Assembly (NCBI GenBank): GCA_025350815.1
Contig: JANXXE010000030.1
Coordinates: forward strand, 1 to 56,055
Direction: 5' to 3'
From: Myxococcales bacterium
GTDB lineage: Bacteria > Myxococcota_A > Polyangia > Fen-1088
DNA length: 56,055 nucleotides
Shown here piece after piece: positions 5,404 to 12,478 of the stretch; position 1 is the first letter of the stretch, and every line of letters begins with the position of its first letter. A program made the position numbers and the translations under genes. The notes under the pieces were generated by a model. That model saw only the letters and a list, made by a program, of their open reading frames with translations, searched no databases and was not told the DNA's origin.

Positions 5404-5763
5404 GTGCCGTCGGTGGCCATCATCGGCGCGTCCACGGACCGCAACAAATTCGGCAACAAGGCCGTGCGCGCGTACGTCCGCCAGGGTTGGACGGTGTTTC
5501 CCGTGAACCCGAACACGGTCGTCGTGGAAGGCCTTCGTAGTTACGCGAGCATCACGGACATTCCAGGCGCGCTGGATCGCGCGTCTCTGTACGTTCCGGC
5601 GAAGGTCGGCATCGGCCTGCTGGGCGCCATCAAGAGCAAGGGGGTCGGCGAGCTGTGGGTCAACCCCGGGGCGGAAAGCGACGCCTTGCTCGCCGAGGCG
5701 GCCCGCCTGGGACTGACCACCGTCGAGGCGTGCAGCATTCTCGATATCGGCACCACACCATGA
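5404..5763 (+). CDS. CoA-binding domain protein (YccU-like)
   Basis: The 119-residue protein is a single Rossmann-type CoA-binding domain (CoA_binding_2). It has VAIIGAST near the N-terminus, the VFPVNPN strand-turn and the LWVNPGAES segment typical of YccU-like proteins. Stand-alone members bind coenzyme A or a nucleotide, but their physiological role is poorly defined. The start is GTG at 5404, 3 bases after the preceding stop, and its stop overlaps the cysK start as ATGA. Translation is therefore probably coupled to the cysteine synthase. Confidence 0.88.
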   Translation: MPSVAIIGASTDRNKFGNKAVRAYVRQGWTVFPVNPNTVVVEGLRSYASITDIPGALDRASLYVPAKVGIGLLGAIKSKGVGELWVNPGAESDALLAEAARLGLTTVEACSILDIGTTP

Positions 5764-6704
5764 ATCACGCGCCGGCCGTCAGCAGCATGATTGAATTGAT
5801 CGGGGGAACGCCCCTGGTGCGGCTGCGCCACCTGCCGGGGCCGAACAGCGCCGACGTGTTCGTGAAATGCGAGCAGTTCAACCCAGGCGGATCGGTGAAG
5901 GATCGCGTGGCCCTGGCCATGATCCTGCAGGGCGAGCGCGAGGGGCTTCTGGTGCCGGGCAAGTCAGTGATTGTCGAGCCGACCTCGGGCAACACGGGCG
6001 TCGGGTTGGCACTGGTGTCCGCGGTCAAGCGCTATCGGCTGATCCTGACCATGCCGGACAATATGTCGCTGGAACGGCGAACACTGCTGAACGCATACGG
6101 CGCCGAAGTTCATCTGACGCCGGCGGCGCAGACCATGACGGGGGCCGTGCGGCGCGCGATGGAATTGTGTGCCGAGAACCCAACGTACGTGATGCCCCAG
6201 CAGTTCAAGAACCCCGCCAACGTCGCGGCGCACCGCCGGACGACGGGGCCCGAGATCGTCGCGCAGCTGCAAGTAGCGGGGATGCGCGTACCGGATGCCT
6301 TCGTGGCGGGCGTCGGGACGGGCGGCACCATCACCGGCGTCGGCCAGGTCTTGCGGCGCAAATTTCCCGCCGTGCGAATCATCGCCGTCGAGCCGGCCGG
6401 CAGCGCGGTTTTAAGCGGGCAGCCGGGCGGCGAGCACCGCATCGACGGCATCGGCGCGGGATTCGTCCCCGAAATTCTGGACCGCGCGCAGATCTCCGAG
6501 GTGCGCACGATCGCCGACCAGGAGGCGCAGCGGGTGAAGCTGGATCTGGCGCGGCGCGAGGGCCTGCTGGTCGGGATCTCGTCGGGAGCCGCGGTCAAGA
6601 TCGCCCTGGACGTCGCGCGCGAGATGGGACCCGGGCGGACGGTCGTGACGGTATTGCCCGATACGGGTGAACGCTATTTCAGCTCGGACGAGTCCTTCAC
6701 GTGA
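5760..6704 (+). CDS. cysK: Cysteine synthase A-type PLP enzyme
   Basis: This fold-type II PLP enzyme replaces the O-acetyl group of O-acetylserine with sulfide to give cysteine. The 314-residue product has the PLP lysine Lys47 in NPGGSVKDR, the substrate loop PTSGNTG, the phosphate loop GTGGTITG and the C-terminal GISSGAA segment. The frame runs upstream to 5655. The ATG at 5760 overlaps the previous stop (ATGA), gives the normal family length, and is preferred. The next gene overlaps by GTGA. It differs clearly from the second synthase at 9623, so the cluster encodes two cysteine synthase-like enzymes. No serine acetyltransferase gene is nearby. Confidence 0.93.
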   Translation: MNHAPAVSSMIELIGGTPLVRLRHLPGPNSADVFVKCEQFNPGGSVKDRVALAMILQGEREGLLVPGKSVIVEPTSGNTGVGLALVSAVKRYRLILTMPDNMSLERRTLLNAYGAEVHLTPAAQTMTGAVRRAMELCAENPTYVMPQQFKNPANVAAHRRTTGPEIVAQLQVAGMRVPDAFVAGVGTGGTITGVGQVLRRKFPAVRIIAVEPAGSAVLSGQPGGEHRIDGIGAGFVPEILDRAQISEVRTIADQEAQRVKLDLARREGLLVGISSGAAVKIALDVAREMGPGRTVVTVLPDTGERYFSSDESFT

Positions 6705-7426
6705 CCACCGAATCGACGGGGGCCGGGGTCCTGCTGATCGGCGCGGGGGGCCTTGGATGTGGGACGGCCCTGGCACTGGCTGCGGCCGGCATCTCGCCAC
6801 TGACGGTGGTGGACGACGACCATGTCGAGGAAAGCAATCTGCACCGGCAGGTCCTGTTGTCCGCCAAGGATGCCGGGCGTCCCAAGGTGTTGGCGCTGGC
6901 GGAGACCCTCGGCGAACGGTTTCCGTCGGTGAAGGTTCGCCCGATCGCCCAGCGCTTCGATGCGGCGAACGCCGTGCGCCTGCTGGAAGACTGTGATGTC
7001 GTGGTGGACGGCTCGGACAATCTGGCGACGAAATTTCTCGCCAACGATGCCTGCGTACTGGCCGGCAAACCCCTGGTCCATGCCGCCGCGGTCGGAACGG
7101 GGGGGCAGTTGCTGACAGTGCCGCGGGGCGGACGGCCTTGTTACCGCTGCCTTTTCGAAGAGCTGCCGGCACCCGAGGCCGACGCGCCGTCGTGTTCCGA
7201 GGTGGGTGTTCTGGGGCCCGTGCCTGGGGTGCTGGGCGCGCTGCAGGCCTGCGAGGCGGCGCGGATTCTACGCGGTGAAAGTCCCGCCTTCGCTGGGCGG
7301 CTCATCCGGTATGATTCGCCGCTCATGACGATGGGCGCCATTCGATTTCGGGCCAATCCTTCCTGCCGCGTTTGCGGCACCCATCCGTCCATCACGGCGG
7401 CATCGCTTGAGGAGTGCGTTTCATGA
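6701..7426 (+). CDS. ThiF/MoeB/HesA-type E1-like adenylyltransferase (catalytic copy)
   Basis: These enzymes adenylate the C-terminal glycine of MoaD/ThiS-type carriers before sulfur transfer. The 241-residue product has the ATP loop GAGGLG (14-19), VVDDDHVEESNLHRQ with Arg49, Lys63 in GRPK, Asp103/Asp106 in VDGSDN, and a Cys4 zinc site at Cys147/150 and Cys222/225. Cys165 in SCSEVGVLGP aligns with the catalytic cysteine region of MoeB/ThiF. The odd feature is the N-terminus. It begins only 13 residues before the ATP loop and lacks the RYxRQ helix of MoeB. That element is present in the degenerate paralog at 9003. There is no rhodanese domain, so the sulfur donor is not evident. It overlaps its neighbours by GTGA and ATGA. 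Confidence 0.92.
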   Translation: MTTESTGAGVLLIGAGGLGCGTALALAAAGISPLTVVDDDHVEESNLHRQVLLSAKDAGRPKVLALAETLGERFPSVKVRPIAQRFDAANAVRLLEDCDVVVDGSDNLATKFLANDACVLAGKPLVHAAAVGTGGQLLTVPRGGRPCYRCLFEELPAPEADAPSCSEVGVLGPVPGVLGALQACEAARILRGESPAFAGRLIRYDSPLMTMGAIRFRANPSCRVCGTHPSITAASLEECVS

Positions 7427-8673
7427 GTTTCGTCAAAGGGCTGTCTTGTCGCGAGTGCGGAAATATTTATCCCAAGGCGCCCGTGCACGTGTGCGAGTAC
7501 TGCTTCGGTCCGCTGGAAATCACCTATGACTACGATGCGGTCGGCAAGATCCTCAGCAAGTCAGTGATCGCGTCGCGCGCGCCGTCGATGTGGCGTTACG
7601 CCGAACTGCTGCCGCTCGACAATCCGCCGTCGGTCGGTCTGCAGACGGGCATGACGCCGCTGGTGCGCGCGGATCGCCTGGCCAGGCGCCTCGGGGTTCG
7701 CGAATTGTGGGTGAAGAACGATTCGGTCAGCCACCCCACCTTGTCATTCAAGGACCGCGTGGTGTCCGTCGCCATTTCGAAAGCGCGCGAGTTCGGAATT
7801 CCCATTGTCGCGTGCGCGTCGACGGGCAATCTGGCGAACGCCACGGCCGCGCAGGCGGCGTCTGTGGGCATGACGGCGGTGATTTTGATCCCGCATGATC
7901 TGGAGCCGGCCAAAGTAATGGCGACCAGCGTGTACGGCGCGCACGTCGTGGGCGTCAAGGGCACCTACGACGATGTGAACCGCCTGTGCTCGGAGATCGC
8001 GGGGAAGTACGGCTGGGGTTTCGTCAATGTGAACCTGCGGCCGTTTTACGCCGAGGGTTCAAAGTCCTACGGCTACGAAATCGCCGAGCAACTGGGCTGG
8101 AAGCTGCCGGCGCACGTCATCACGCCGATGGCGGGCGGGTCGCTGATCACCAAGATTGGCAAGGCCTTCAGCGAGCTGACCAAGCTGGGCCTGTGTTCGG
8201 CCGCCAAGACCAAGATTCATGGCGCCCAGGCCGAGGGCTGCGCGCCGATTGCCTCGATGGTGATTGAAGGGCGTGATGCGATGAAGCCGGTCAAGCAGCC
8301 GCAGACCATCGCCAAATCCCTGGCCATCGGCAATCCGGCGGACGCCTTTTACGCGCGGCAGACGATGCTGGGCTCGGGCGGGTTCGCCGCGGCGCCGACG
8401 GATCCGGAAATCATCGACGGCATGCGCATGCTGGCCGAGACGGAAGGCATCTTCACCGAGACGGCGGGCGGCGTGACGATGGGGGCGACCCGGCGCCTCA
8501 TCGAACAAGGCCACATCGGCAAGGACGACGGGCCGGTGGTCATTTGCATCACGGGCCAGGGGTTGAAGACCCAGGATCCGTTGGTCGAGGTCCTGCCGCG
8601 TCCGGATCTCATCGGGCCGCGCCTGGCGGACTTCGACGGATTGCTCGGCGGGCCCCTGAGGGGCCTGGTCTAG
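7423..8673 (+). CDS. thrC: Threonine synthase with N-terminal zinc ribbon
   Basis: Threonine synthase converts O-phosphohomoserine to threonine using PLP. The 416-residue protein has a small Cys4 knuckle (Cys9, 12, 24, 27), then a fold-type II domain with PLP lysine Lys110 in HPTLSFKDR and the ASTGNLANA loop. The ATG at 7423 is chosen because it overlaps the previous stop (ATGA) and has an excellent ribosome site, GAGGAG at 7409-7414; an upstream GTG at 7414 would overlap that site. A GC-rich hairpin (GGCCCC-TGA-GGGGCC, 8651-8665) lies at its 3' end. Its place inside a sulfur-carrier cluster leaves open an atypical substrate, but the sequence reads as an ordinary ThrC. Confidence 0.9.
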   Translation: MSFVKGLSCRECGNIYPKAPVHVCEYCFGPLEITYDYDAVGKILSKSVIASRAPSMWRYAELLPLDNPPSVGLQTGMTPLVRADRLARRLGVRELWVKNDSVSHPTLSFKDRVVSVAISKAREFGIPIVACASTGNLANATAAQAASVGMTAVILIPHDLEPAKVMATSVYGAHVVGVKGTYDDVNRLCSEIAGKYGWGFVNVNLRPFYAEGSKSYGYEIAEQLGWKLPAHVITPMAGGSLITKIGKAFSELTKLGLCSAAKTKIHGAQAEGCAPIASMVIEGRDAMKPVKQPQTIAKSLAIGNPADAFYARQTMLGSGGFAAAPTDPEIIDGMRMLAETEGIFTETAGGVTMGATRRLIEQGHIGKDDGPVVICITGQGLKTQDPLVEVLPRPDLIGPRLADFDGLLGGPLRGLV

Positions 8674-8719
8674 GGCCCGGCTTCTTCTGATACTCTCAAA
8701 ACCCAAGGAGACAGACATC

Positions 8720-8998
8720 ATGGCAACGGTTCGCATACCCACCCCCCTGCGCAAGCTCACCAACGGCAAAGAAGAAATCGTAACCGCGGGTGCCACCGTC
8801 GGCGAATTGATCGCCAGTCTCGAAGCCCAGTTTCCCGGCATCAAGGAACGCATCTGCGACGATGCGGGCAAGGTGCGCCGGTTCGTGAACATCTTCGCCA
8901 ACGACGAGGACATTCGCTTTTTGCAGAACCTCGACACGCCGGTCAAGGATTCGGACGAGATCTCGATCGTGCCCGCCATCGCCGGCGGCCTTTTCTAG
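8720..8998 (+). CDS. MoaD/ThiS/CysO-like sulfur carrier protein with blocked C-terminus
   Basis: The 92-residue beta-grasp protein belongs to the MoaD/ThiS superfamily and has the family segment DEISIVPAIAGG near its end. Mature carriers end in Gly-Gly, which is adenylated and turned into a thiocarboxylate. This one continues past Gly89-Gly90 with Leu91-Phe92, so two residues must be removed before activation. The JAMM protease encoded at 10612 is the obvious candidate; comparable blocked carriers are known (QbsE/QbsD in Pseudomonas, HcyS/HcyD in Wolinella). The CysM-like enzyme nearby suggests a CysO-type role in cysteine synthesis. The gene follows thrC by 46 bases with a strong ribosome site, GGAG at 8707-8710. 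Confidence 0.92.
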   Translation: MATVRIPTPLRKLTNGKEEIVTAGATVGELIASLEAQFPGIKERICDDAGKVRRFVNIFANDEDIRFLQNLDTPVKDSDEISIVPAIAGGLF

Positions 8999-9002
8999 TC
9001 TG

Positions 9003-9626
9003 ATGTCCCTTTCGCCCGCGGCTGTCCGCCGGTACGGCCGGCAGATTGCCCTGCCCGAAATCGGCGCCGAGGGCCAGTTGGCCTTTGGCGACGCCGAGGT
9101 GGCACTGGTCGGCGACGGCGTCTCCGTCGACTGCGCCGCCAGATACCTGACCGCGTCCGGGGTTGGCCGCCTGCGCTTTGTCACCCGCGCCGACTGGCCG
9201 CAGCAACTGGGCGACTGGTTGGAGAGCCTGCGCGGCGCCAGCGTCGTCGTGCGCGCCGGTTTCGAGGACGATGCGATGGTGCGGGCGTCCTTGCGCCTGG
9301 GCATTCCGACGGTGGTGATGCGGGCGCGGCGCGAAGCCGTCGATCTGGTTGCCTTCCGTCGCCACGGGCCCTGCCCCCACGGTACCCGGGATTTCCCCGT
9401 CGCTGCCAGCGCGTCCATCGAGACCGAGGACGACGTTGCGGGCGCGCTCGCCGGATCGCTGGCCGCGACGGAAACGCTGTGGATCCTGGCGCATCCCGCC
9501 GACGGCCCGCGGGCGCGGCACCTGCGTTTGCCGCTGGACGGTCGCAACCCGACGGCCGCGGAGATCCCCTGGTCCCCTGAATGCTTCTTGTGCGGGGGCA
9601 CATCCACCGAGGCGACGTTTTCGTGA
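9003..9626 (+). CDS. Degenerate ThiF/MoeB-like protein (possible non-catalytic E1 partner)
   Basis: The 207-residue protein starts like MoeB: RRYGRQIALPEIGAEGQ (residues 9-25), with Arg13 in the place of MoeB Arg14. The next strand and loop read VALVGDGVSV instead of VLIVGAGGLG, so the nucleotide-binding glycines are lost. I find no counterpart of the VDxDxVxxSNLxRQ arginine, the adenylation lysine or the catalytic cysteine. Only one CxxC (ECFLC) remains near the C-terminus. It begins 4 bases after the carrier stop and overlaps the CysM-like gene by GTGA. It is unlikely to adenylate on its own. An intact frame and tight coupling argue for a retained function, perhaps as partner of the E1 at 6701. 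Confidence 0.8.
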   Translation: MSLSPAAVRRYGRQIALPEIGAEGQLAFGDAEVALVGDGVSVDCAARYLTASGVGRLRFVTRADWPQQLGDWLESLRGASVVVRAGFEDDAMVRASLRLGIPTVVMRARREAVDLVAFRRHGPCPHGTRDFPVAASASIETEDDVAGALAGSLAATETLWILAHPADGPRARHLRLPLDGRNPTAAEIPWSPECFLCGGTSTEATFS

Positions 9627-10615
9627 CCGACATCGACATCGACATCGACGAAGACAGCGACAAGGAGGCCGTCGACCGGGCGCGCGGGCGCGTGGCCGAA
9701 ACGATCACCGATCTCATCGGCCACACACCGATGGTGCGGCTGCGATCGTTTGATCGGGCGTTCCCTGGCATCGAGATCTGGGCCAAGTGCGAGTTCCTCA
9801 ATCCGGGTGGCTCGGTCAAGGATCGCGCCGCCTACCAGATGATCGCGGATGCGATCGAATCGGGGGCGCTGGATCGGCATCGCGTGGTCATCGATTCCAG
9901 CAGCGGGAACACAGGCATTGCGTATTCGCTGATCGGCGGTGCGATGGGGTTCAAGGTCACCCTGGTGTTGCCCGGCAACGTCTCGTGGGCGCGGCGGAAA
10001 ATCAGCGAGGCCTTCGGGACCAAATTGGTCTTTTCAAGCCCAATGGAAGGCTCGGACGGCGCGATCAATCTGTGCCGCGAGCTGGTCGACGCTGACCCGG
10101 ACAAGTATTTCTATCCGAATCAGTACGCGAACGAATCCAACCCTCGTGGGCACTATCTGACCACGGCACCGGAGATCTGGGATCAAACCGCGGGGCGCGT
10201 GACGCATTTCGTGGCGGGTATCGGGACCAGTGGCACGGTCATGGGCACGGGACGGCGCCTGAAGGAATTGCGGCGTGAGATCGAGGTGTGGGCGGTCGAG
10301 CCGGACCAGGCGCTGCACGGTCTCGAAGGCCTCAAGCATATGGCCAGTTCGATCGTGCCGGGCATTTACCATCCCGGTCAGTTGGACGGCGTGCTGCCCA
10401 TCGGCACCGAGGAAGCCTGGGACGTCAGCGAAAAGTTGAGCCAAGAGGAAGGCATTCTGGTGGGCCATTCCTCGGGTGCGGCGGTCGCGGGCGCCCTGCG
10501 CCTGGCCAAACGCCTGGTGGCCGAGGGCAAGCCCGGGGTCATCGTCACCGTCTTCCCGGATCGCGCGGATCGCTATTTCGAGGCCCCCACCGCCAAGAGG
10601 TTGCCTGGACCATGA
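9623..10615 (+). CDS. cysM: CysM-like cysteine synthase
   Basis: This fold-type II PLP synthase has 330 residues, with Lys66 in NPGGSVKDR, the SSSGNTGIAY loop, phosphate loop GTSGTVMGTG and a C-terminal GHSSGAA segment. The stretch YPNQYANESNPRGHY resembles the CysM group, which includes the mycobacterial enzyme that uses O-phosphoserine and the CysO thiocarboxylate. The start is GTG at 9623, overlapping the previous stop (GTGA); an ATG at 9581 would intrude further into the upstream gene. The N-terminus is unusually acidic (Asp-Ile repeats from a GACATC microrepeat). The carrier and JAMM genes on either side support CysO-type chemistry; the acceptor substrate is inferred. Confidence 0.9.
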   Translation: MTDIDIDIDEDSDKEAVDRARGRVAETITDLIGHTPMVRLRSFDRAFPGIEIWAKCEFLNPGGSVKDRAAYQMIADAIESGALDRHRVVIDSSSGNTGIAYSLIGGAMGFKVTLVLPGNVSWARRKISEAFGTKLVFSSPMEGSDGAINLCRELVDADPDKYFYPNQYANESNPRGHYLTTAPEIWDQTAGRVTHFVAGIGTSGTVMGTGRRLKELRREIEVWAVEPDQALHGLEGLKHMASSIVPGIYHPGQLDGVLPIGTEEAWDVSEKLSQEEGILVGHSSGAAVAGALRLAKRLVAEGKPGVIVTVFPDRADRYFEAPTAKRLPGP

Positions 10616-11085
10616 GCATCCCAGTTCATCCCGTCGTCAGCGCCGAAGCGCTGGCGGCCATCTACGCCCACGCCGCGCGCGACTACCCGAAGGAATGCTG
10701 CGGAATTATCTTCGGGCCGCGCGAGGCTGACACGGCCGACACCGCGCGTGCCTGCGCCAACATCCAGGACGAACTGCACGCCGAAGATCCGGTGATGCAC
10801 ACGCGGGATGGGCGCACGGCCTACAACCTGGGTGCAGGCGATCTGTTCGCATTACAAAAAAGCTTACGGGGCCCGGCGCCCGCCAAGATCGTGTATCACT
10901 CGCACGTCGAGGTTGGCGCCTACTTCAGCGACACGGACCAGGCCGCAGCGCGCATGGACGACGAGCCGACCTACCCGGTCGAATATCTGGTCGTCGACAT
11001 CAAGGCCGACGGGGCCCATGGCGCGGCGCAATTCGCGTGGGATCAAGGCCTCAAGCGCTACGTCGAGTGCCGTCGGTATCCGTAG
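10612..11085 (+). CDS. JAMM/MPN+ metalloprotease (M67, Mec-like)
   Basis: The 157-residue protein has a complete JAMM zinc site: Glu28 in YPKECCG, His96 and His98 in YHSHVEVGAYFSDTD, Ser106 and Asp109 (H-x-H-x7-S-x2-D). Bacterial stand-alone members process MoaD/ThiS-type carriers. Mec in mycobacteria releases cysteine from CysO-Cys, and QbsD trims the carrier tail. Here it could do either or both, because the carrier at 8720 has two extra residues after Gly-Gly. The ATG overlaps the cysM stop (ATGA). It is the last gene of the run; 121 bases or more follow before the next coding start. Confidence 0.93.
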   Translation: MSIPVHPVVSAEALAAIYAHAARDYPKECCGIIFGPREADTADTARACANIQDELHAEDPVMHTRDGRTAYNLGAGDLFALQKSLRGPAPAKIVYHSHVEVGAYFSDTDQAAARMDDEPTYPVEYLVVDIKADGAHGAAQFAWDQGLKRYVECRRYP

Positions 11086-11118
11086 GCCTTCATCCCACCG
11101 GGCGCCGTTCGGATGAAT

Positions 11119-11162
11119 CCGGAAAAGGGCTGTAAGGTTCGCGGGTTTTAAGAATTTTCCGG
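11119..11162. repeat. Spaced inverted repeat upstream of the MFS gene
   Basis: CCGGAAAA (11119-11126) and its exact reverse complement TTTTCCGG (11155-11162) are separated by 28 bases, in the spacer between the JAMM protease gene and the transporter. The spacing is too wide for a simple terminator stem. It could be two half-sites for a regulator, or chance. The rest of the spacer shows no gene. Confidence 0.3.
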
Positions 11163-11272
11163 CTTCCGCCGAATCAACACGGCGTGGCAGCCAAGTTGGC
11201 CTAACCTTGGAAGGCGTGGACGATCCCCCCCTTCAGCGTCGCAGCGGGCGGCGCGTCACGATTCCGGCAGCG

Positions 11273-12478
11273 ATGGCCCCCTTGCTGCTGGAGTTCCCTG
11301 CCCTGGACCGGCGCATCTGGATCCTGGCGGCAGCGCGCTTTGTCGTGACCGCGGGATTTGCGGTGGTCATGCCCTTTTTGGCCATGCATCTGGCGGTCGA
11401 ACGCCAGATCCCCGTCCTTCAGATCGGCATGTTGTGGACCGTCGTCGGCGCGTGCAGCGCCTCGATGCAGTGGGTGTCGGGGCAGGTCGCCGATAGGATA
11501 GGCCGCCGCCCCGTCATCATCTCGGCCATGATCGTCCGATCGCTGAACCTGGCGGCTCTGGGTTGGGCGGTGGGGTCACATGCCTCGTTCCTGGCCATCG
11601 GCGCGCTGTGCGTGATCAACGGTGCCATGCGGGCCTTCTACGATCCGGTGGCGTCCGCGGTTCTGGCGTCGCTGACCCTGCCCGAAGAGCGGGTGGCGGC
11701 GTTCTCGCTGCACCGGGTGGGCAGCAGCCTGGGCTGGGCGGCCGGCCCCATGGCGGCGACCTTTGCAGCCGACGTGTCCTACGGTCTGCTGTTCTACGTG
11801 GCGGCGCCGCTGACCCTGATTGCGGCAGCCGCGATGGCCACCATTCGCGAGACGCGGCCTGAAAAGGTCCAGCCGAAAATGCGTGTGTCCGAGTTGCTGG
11901 CCTTCCGCAAGGACAAGCCCTTCGTGCGCTTCTTGTGGGCGACGGCGGCGTTCTACCTGCTGCAAACGCAGATGTATCACATCATGGCCATCTACGCGGC
12001 CAAGTACCTGGGCCTGAACCGCGCGCAGGTGGCAACCTTGTTCACACTGAACGGGATCCTGGTCGTGCTGCTGCAACTTCCGTCGGTGCGCCTGATTCGC
12101 CGCATCGGGACGACGGGCGCGTTGGTACTGGGATCGCTCGGCTACTTCGCCAGTTACCTCGGCTGCTGCATGGCCATCGGATACTTTTCCCTTCTGTGCT
12201 GCGTTGCCCTCATCACCTTCTGCGAGATCATCGCCCTGCCCTCGCAGCAAACGGCCGTGACGGAAATGGCACCCCACAACAGCGTGGCGGCCTACGCGGG
12301 GCTGTATGGGCTGGTGCAGGGCGCGGCGCAGACCGTGGGGCCCATCTTCGGAACGTCGTTGATCGAATTCGTATCGCCCCGGGGTGCATGGATCATTTTG
12401 GCGATCCTGGGCCTGGCGGCCGCGTTCGGCTACAACGCCACGCAGCGGCCGACGGCGCGACAGATCATCAAGATCTAG
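11273..12478 (+). CDS. Major facilitator superfamily transporter
   Basis: The protein has about 401 residues and twelve predicted membrane segments in two six-helix halves. The MFS motif A lies between helices 2 and 3 (SGQVADRIGRRP), and a cytoplasmic loop near the middle contains ETRPEKVQPK. This looks like a drug:H+ antiporter or small-solute exporter; the substrate cannot be read from the sequence. The frame extends upstream to a TTG at 11207 and a GTG at 11216. I prefer ATG 11273 because it places about 14 residues before the first helix, but no start has a good ribosome site. The stop interlocks with the convergent oxidoreductase stop in CTAG (12475-12478). Confidence 0.85.
   Translation: MAPLLLEFPALDRRIWILAAARFVVTAGFAVVMPFLAMHLAVERQIPVLQIGMLWTVVGACSASMQWVSGQVADRIGRRPVIISAMIVRSLNLAALGWAVGSHASFLAIGALCVINGAMRAFYDPVASAVLASLTLPEERVAAFSLHRVGSSLGWAAGPMAATFAADVSYGLLFYVAAPLTLIAAAAMATIRETRPEKVQPKMRVSELLAFRKDKPFVRFLWATAAFYLLQTQMYHIMAIYAAKYLGLNRAQVATLFTLNGILVVLLQLPSVRLIRRIGTTGALVLGSLGYFASYLGCCMAIGYFSLLCCVALITFCEIIALPSQQTAVTEMAPHNSVAAYAGLYGLVQGAAQTVGPIFGTSLIEFVSPRGAWIILAILGLAAAFGYNATQRPTARQIIKI

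Follow-up and report, generated by a model that had tools for sequence, protein, structure and literature searches.

In the mycobacterial CysO-MoeZR-CysM-Mec system, Mec hydrolyses the adduct formed between the sulfur carrier and cysteine (PMC3227635), and a related operon type combining a carrier, an activating enzyme (E1) fused to rhodanese, a JAB (JAMM) protease and a cysteine synthase was described in 2006 as type 4c (PMC1779556); rhodanese domains are carried by the mycobacterial and many other activators (PMC3227635, PMC1779556). Carriers that bear a short cap after the Gly-Gly and need a JAMM protease are also established, the examples being QbsE/QbsD and PtmS2/PtmS1 (PMC6006322). In Streptomyces, PtmS2 terminates in GG-MV, and no product is made once the JAMM gene has been deleted (PMC6006322). 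The bacterial E1s for sulfur carriers, MoeB and ThiF, are described as homodimers in which both chains bind ATP and the phosphates of the nucleotide are reached by an arginine (MoeB Arg14, ThiF Arg11) that the other chain supplies from its N-terminal RYxRQ helix (PMC13139853, PMC12355090), whereas heterodimeric or two-domain E1s have been seen as a feature of conjugation systems (PMC12355090, PMC11354881). Here, we analysed a 56,055-nucleotide stretch of DNA (hereafter, the window; contig JANXXE010000030.1 of assembly GCA_025350815.1) from an uncultured myxobacterium, in which an operon encodes a sulfur carrier of the CysO/ThiS/MoaD type together with two proteins, denoted E1a and E1b, that resemble complementary parts of a single carrier-activating enzyme. 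Judging from the complementarity of the two sequences, their co-occurrence and one natural fusion, the operon probably represents a CysO-type cysteine-synthesis relay in which the E1 is split over E1a and E1b into a two-subunit enzyme similar to SAE1-UBA2.

E1a (241 amino acids) consists of a ThiF domain only, with a complete nucleotide- and zinc-binding domain. Its alignment to MoeB begins at MoeB residue 32, and its match to the E1 hidden Markov model (HMM) covers positions 31-254. The N-terminal RYxRQ helix with the arginine finger is absent from the E1a of the window, and no E1a at any other locus has it. A misassigned start codon was ruled out as the cause, because the upstream frames enter other genes or stops and contain no finger motif. 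When motifs were counted against a comparison set of 46 full-length E1s, the P-loop, R73, K86 and D130 motifs (MoeB numbering) were found to be kept in 39/39 E1a proteins, all of which thus combine the equivalents of the ATP-binding residues with the absence of the finger helix, as do the active halves of SAE1-UBA2, NAE1-UBA3 and BilD. Sequence search of the PDB matched E1a to UBA2 (SAE2), the active subunit of the SUMO E1, although E1a lacks the inserted catalytic cysteine half-domain that characterizes canonical conjugating E1s.

E1b presents the reverse picture. Its N-terminal motif, MSLSPAAVRRYGRQIALPEIGAEGQ, places Arg13 at the finger position, equivalent to MoeB Arg14 and ThiF Arg11, and both R10 and R13 are invariant in the family alignment; neither GxGGxG nor any other ATP residue is present in the protein. 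The finger arginine is kept in all 34 E1b proteins and the Arg73 motif in none of them, while the five loose P-loop matches in this set are either off the E1 position or of the wrong form. All 34 therefore retain the finger arginine and have lost the nucleotide site, the combination found in the inactive halves of the SAE1-UBA2, NAE1-UBA3 and BilD kind. The arrangement of homodimeric MoeB/ThiF E1s, with a site and a finger helix on each chain, is seen in neither protein, E1a being devoid of the helix and E1b of the site. Comparisons of E1b with known structures point in the same direction: in the PDB, the E1b profile matches SAE1, the inactive SUMO E1 subunit, and the AlphaFold2 model of the window protein (mean predicted local distance difference test score, pLDDT, of 75.5, low near the finger helix) has an E1-like fold, with template modelling (TM) scores of ~0.7 to Uba4, ThiF and MoeB; it also matches part of APPBP1/NAE1, which is the inactive NEDD8 E1 subunit. 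Search of a viral fold library yielded only weak ThiF-like matches. The part of E1b that follows the motif varies from ~92 to 250 residues across loci, with short forms of ~100 amino acids in Sorangium and at three further loci (L044, L045 and L047); the 102-residue L047 protein is modelled with a pLDDT of 86 as a partial E1 fold matching Uba4 and MoeB. A phylum-wide search with the E1b profile was swamped by canonical E1s, and only its short-frame matches and the fusion described below were usable. The prediction that prompted this work (hereafter, the original prediction), which focused on the carrier and the JAMM protease, overlooked this complementarity between the two E1 genes.

E1a and E1b occur together at one locus in several Myxococcota families and in Binatota, and at none of the loci collected was E1b found together with a full-length E1. 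The pair can outlast the rest of the operon. In genome G013 (locus L025), the operon has been lost from the same chromosomal site, which lies between homologs of trpB and hemE/hemH as judged by sequence, except for the neighbouring E1a and E1b genes; at this locus and two others (L168 and L169), the two genes are still adjacent after loss of the carrier, CysK, the threonine-synthase-like gene (ThrC), CysM and JAMM. In genomes G087 and G355, the pair likewise stands without a CysO-type carrier. One genome, G067, contains a natural fusion in a single open reading frame of 474 codons (L166:8083-9504, G067:C110), in which the E1b part (model positions 3-59) precedes the E1a part (model positions 31-250). 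This genome has no CysO-type carrier. The fusion and the retained gene pairs indirectly support a physical E1a/E1b heterodimer. At a Nitrospirota locus (L076), two full-length E1s (7913-8764 and 10537-11415) flank ThrC and the carrier at the positions that E1a and E1b occupy in the operon, plausibly the state that preceded complementary loss. In a tree of the active domain, whose root and deep branches are poorly supported, E1a sequences were strongly clustered (2 changes versus 28 in shuffles), and the first Nitrospirota copy was basal to the full-length sequences next to them.

We found no description of a split E1 for sulfur carriers in the open-licence literature. Its nearest analogues are SAE1-UBA2, NAE1-UBA3 and BilD (PMC11354881, PMC12355090), in which labour is likewise divided between one half that has the RYxRQ helix but is nucleotide-dead and another that binds nucleotide but has no such helix, and the yeast Tcd1-Tcd2 heterodimer (PMC13139853), a MoeB/ThiF-family pair in which the active subunit receives an arginine finger from the inactive one. 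The former differ from the myxobacterial pair in that the latter belongs to bacterial sulfur-carrier metabolism, has no cysteine domain or E2, and includes an E1b reduced to as few as ~95 amino acids, whereas Tcd1-Tcd2 is eukaryotic, acts in tRNA modification and does not activate a carrier. As in the mycobacterial system (PMC3227635), genes for a homologous carrier (E=8e-23), a CysM-type synthase and a JAMM protease lie together in a single operon, but the present one differs in the Leu-Phe cap, the split E1 devoid of rhodanese, and the additional CysK and ThrC-like enzymes. Operons of type 4c (PMC1779556) have the same gene set except for the E1 architecture, in which one rhodanese-fused chain takes the place of the two rhodanese-free chains found here. 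QbsE/QbsD and PtmS2/PtmS1 (PMC6006322) resemble the locus in the short cap after Gly-Gly and the JAMM gene in the cluster; the present operon, by contrast, belongs to primary metabolism, and the Streptomyces case involves an ordinary MoaZ-type activator.

The eight genes, all on the forward strand between positions 5404 and 11085, form one tight operon with overlapping gene ends (Table 1). Relatives whose contigs are intact (L023, L026, L027 and L030) show the same gene order, and truncated copies are present at L024 and L029. The operon CysM is related to CysM of Mycobacterium tuberculosis (3dki, E=1.7e-48). The threonine-synthase-like gene is the commonest neighbour of the carrier family, adjoining the carrier at 49/80 loci (L040-L119), some of them in Verrucomicrobiota and Chloroflexota where neither an E1 nor CysM or JAMM lies nearby. 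The genome of the window also encodes a second ThiS/MoaD-like carrier, with a plain Ser-Gly-Gly end (G000:C32:7761-7964, L031), and a second threonine synthase lies ~3.8 kb from it.

Table 1. Features of the sulfur-carrier operon in the window.
Feature	Coordinates	Strand	Evidence or remark
CoA-binding-domain protein, opens the conserved block	5404..5763	+	PF13380, 86 bits; same place in L023, L026, L030
CysK-type cysteine synthase	5760..6704	+	TIGR01139, 389.5 bits, above cut-off
E1a, putative active E1 half	6701..7426	+	PF00899, 214 bits, from profile position 22
Threonine-synthase-like pyridoxal phosphate (PLP) enzyme	7414..8673	+	TIGR00260, 263 bits
Sulfur carrier, CysO/ThiS/MoaD type, 92 amino acids	8720..8998	+	PF02597, E=2.3e-18
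Leu-Phe cap after the carrier Gly-Gly	8990..8995	+	sequence
E1b, putative pseudo-E1 with RYGRQ helix, ATP-binding residues lost	9003..9626	+	E1 HMM positions 1-61 only
CysM-type cysteine synthase	9623..10615	+	TIGR01138, 319.8 bits, best family, under its cut-off of 394
JAMM/Prok-JAB metalloprotease, 157 amino acids	10612..11085	+	PF14464, 53.7 bits

By analogy with CysO/MoeZR/CysM/Mec (PMC3227635), the operon could work as follows. The JAMM protein would trim the short cap, Leu-Phe in this case, exposing the Gly-Gly. E1a, as half of an E1a/E1b heterodimer, would bind ATP and adenylate the C-terminal glycine of the carrier, with the N-terminal helix of E1b bringing the arginine finger into the E1a active site, as happens between MoeB or ThiF protomers; the role of E1b would parallel that of SAE1 and NAE1 in serving UBA2 and UBA3. 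A sulfur donor encoded outside the operon would then convert the adenylate into a thiocarboxylate, from which one of the three PLP enzymes, CysM or another, would accept the sulfur to yield carrier-Cys, as in mycobacteria, and the same JAMM protein would release cysteine and recycle the carrier. No sulfur donor is evident among the genes of the window operon, and E1a carries no rhodanese domain. In two relatives (L167 and L170), E1a has a C-terminal TusA domain (PF01206), likely a built-in sulfur donor. A further locus (L171:2556-3551) has E1a and a carrier capped with GG-Trp-Tyr in one frame, either an E1-carrier fusion or the result of a lost stop codon.

The carrier starts with ATG, belongs to the ThiS family of Pfam and terminates in ...IVPAIAGGLF, as originally predicted. 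Among solved structures, it comes nearest to M. tuberculosis CysO (3dwg_C, E=8e-23), which aligns with it through the final Gly-Gly; unlike the window carrier, the CysO chain stops there, leaving Leu-Phe over. The protein thus has both the beta-grasp ThiS domain and the C-terminal Gly-Gly of CysO-type carriers. The Gly-Gly is present in 7/7 carriers of the same family, which outside the tail are 78-84% identical, but is followed by LF in the window, nothing in L023, S in L024, SRSPA in L026, R in L027, DY in L029 and C in L030. With zero to five residues within one family, the tail cannot represent a conserved Leu-Phe signal, and its shortness and variability among close relatives indicate that Leu-Phe is not special. 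Of the 80 carriers surveyed in named genomes, 44 have no tail and 35 have one; the remaining carrier is cut by the contig end. One Planctomycetota carrier (L099:10001-10560) continues after the Gly-Gly with ~90 residues forming a domain that by eye resembles NIL/ACT-type ligand-binding domains.

The zinc site of the JAMM protein is intact, again as predicted: the motif E28...H96-S-H98-x7-S106-x2-D109 is complete, conforms to the E...HxH(x7)SxxD pattern of JAMM/MPN+ proteases such as Mec, QbsD and HcyD, and its residues E28, H96, H98, S106 and D109 are invariant in six relatives. To survey its association with capped carriers, whole genomes were searched for Prok-JAB where the locus had none, and the results were pooled with the local JAMM genes. 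JAMM is encoded in 33/34 genomes with a capped carrier versus 20/44 with a plain Gly-Gly carrier (78 genomes). The Fisher P-value of ~3e-7 was obtained with L113, whose carrier is truncated at its end, included among the capped ones. The only capped carrier without a genomic JAMM is L083, from a 1.7-Mb assembly. Capped carriers accompanied by JAMM are found in Myxococcota, Binatota, Chloroflexota, Dadabacteria, Omnitrophota, Nitrospinota and further groups. Phylogeny accounts for part of the association, with few independent comparisons since the JAMM-less genomes are nearly all Verrucomicrobiota, and the presence of JAMM is no proof that it acts on the carrier. Conversely, JAMM adjoins a plain Gly-Gly carrier at nine loci and must therefore have another job too, for which hydrolysis of a carrier-cysteine adduct, as performed by Mec, is a natural and likely candidate. 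With residues after Gly-Gly and a JAMM gene in its operon, the window carrier is of the QbsE/PtmS2 kind and is a further example of a known pattern rather than a new one, and the survey offers a practical rule for annotating capped carriers.

Several observations weigh against the two-subunit E1. E1a stands without a local E1b at eight loci (Plesiocystis, Enhygromyxa, Paraliomyxa and relatives; Nannocystaceae and relatives), and in the seven E1a-only genomes that were searched whole, the sole other E1 is a normal full-length one, which argues against a strict need for E1b; this normal E1 may stand in for it. At one locus (L084/L173), E1b lies beside the carrier with no local E1a. In G013, G087, G355 and G067, which have the pair or the fusion but no CysO-type carrier, other carriers may be served, and the normal E1-rhodanese of the window's genome (L032) could activate the carrier. 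Moreover, the arginine finger is reported not to be essential in MoeB and ThiF and is absent from TcdA (PMC13139853). Considering the E1a-only loci and the reportedly dispensable finger, E1b may stabilise or tune the enzyme without being absolutely required. These two points would also favour an E1a that acts alone as a fingerless homodimer or pairs with the normal E1-rhodanese of the genome, E1b being a duplicate in decay that takes no part in activation, to which its widely varying length and core would also testify. We consider this unlikely, given that E1b is kept across two phyla with its finger arginine intact while the remainder erodes, that the pair outlasts the loss of other genes and has been fused once, and that the E1b-less lineages are nested within the E1a tree, so that E1b was probably lost there secondarily. 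Even less probable is that the carrier modifies proteins in the manner of archaeal SAMP1, E1a/E1b serving as the E1 and JAMM as the desampylase of such a system. The carrier does score above the 60-bit cut-off of NCBIfam SAMP1, at 64.9 bits, and conjugating systems are built with a two-part E1 (PMC12355090, PMC11354881), but the JAMM protein, at 29.5 bits, does not come near the 130-bit cut-off for desampylases, and the operon is rich in PLP enzymes of sulfur and amino-acid metabolism with no E2 or E3. The TusA and carrier fusions to E1a in relatives support sulfur transfer, not protein tagging, as the main role.

The remaining alternatives concern the protease. The original prediction suggested that one JAMM may both unblock the GG-LF carrier and release cysteine in a CysM-type pathway; that this dual role is the point of the locus, with an otherwise ordinary E1, is a possibility to which we give somewhat less than even chances. 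Its link between cap and JAMM is borne out by the genome survey, and its premise that JAMM proteases unblock capped carriers by the genetic precedent (PMC6006322); the second job accords with the Mec precedent (PMC3227635), the CysO/CysM/Mec-like operon and the JAMM genes beside plain Gly-Gly carriers. The dual role is also compatible with a split E1, however, while the cap varies and can be missing altogether, the E1 departs from the ordinary form, and a cluster of capped carrier and JAMM was already known. Close homologs ending in plain Gly-Gly, which that prediction had named as evidence against itself, exist in part: the L023 carrier, from the same operon and family, is 83% identical and has a bare end. 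Alternatively, the tail could be neutral drift trimmed by another peptidase, with a purely Mec-like JAMM acting on carrier-Cys, which the patternless tails of close relatives and the retention of JAMM with plain Gly-Gly carriers would fit. This seems doubtful, as capped carriers are nearly absent from JAMM-less genomes, the partly phylogenetic nature of the association notwithstanding.

On balance, Myxococcota and Binatota appear to have evolved a two-subunit E1 for sulfur carriers, with labour divided as in the SUMO and NEDD8 E1s, a finger partner reduced to as few as ~95 residues, and surviving intermediates in the form of two full-length E1s, a split pair and a one-chain fusion. If true, an E1 that was split, and once re-fused, in a cysteine-synthesis operon would represent a separate natural experiment in the conversion of a symmetric E1 into active and inactive halves, and would provide very small proteins for testing what the inactive half of an E1 is for.

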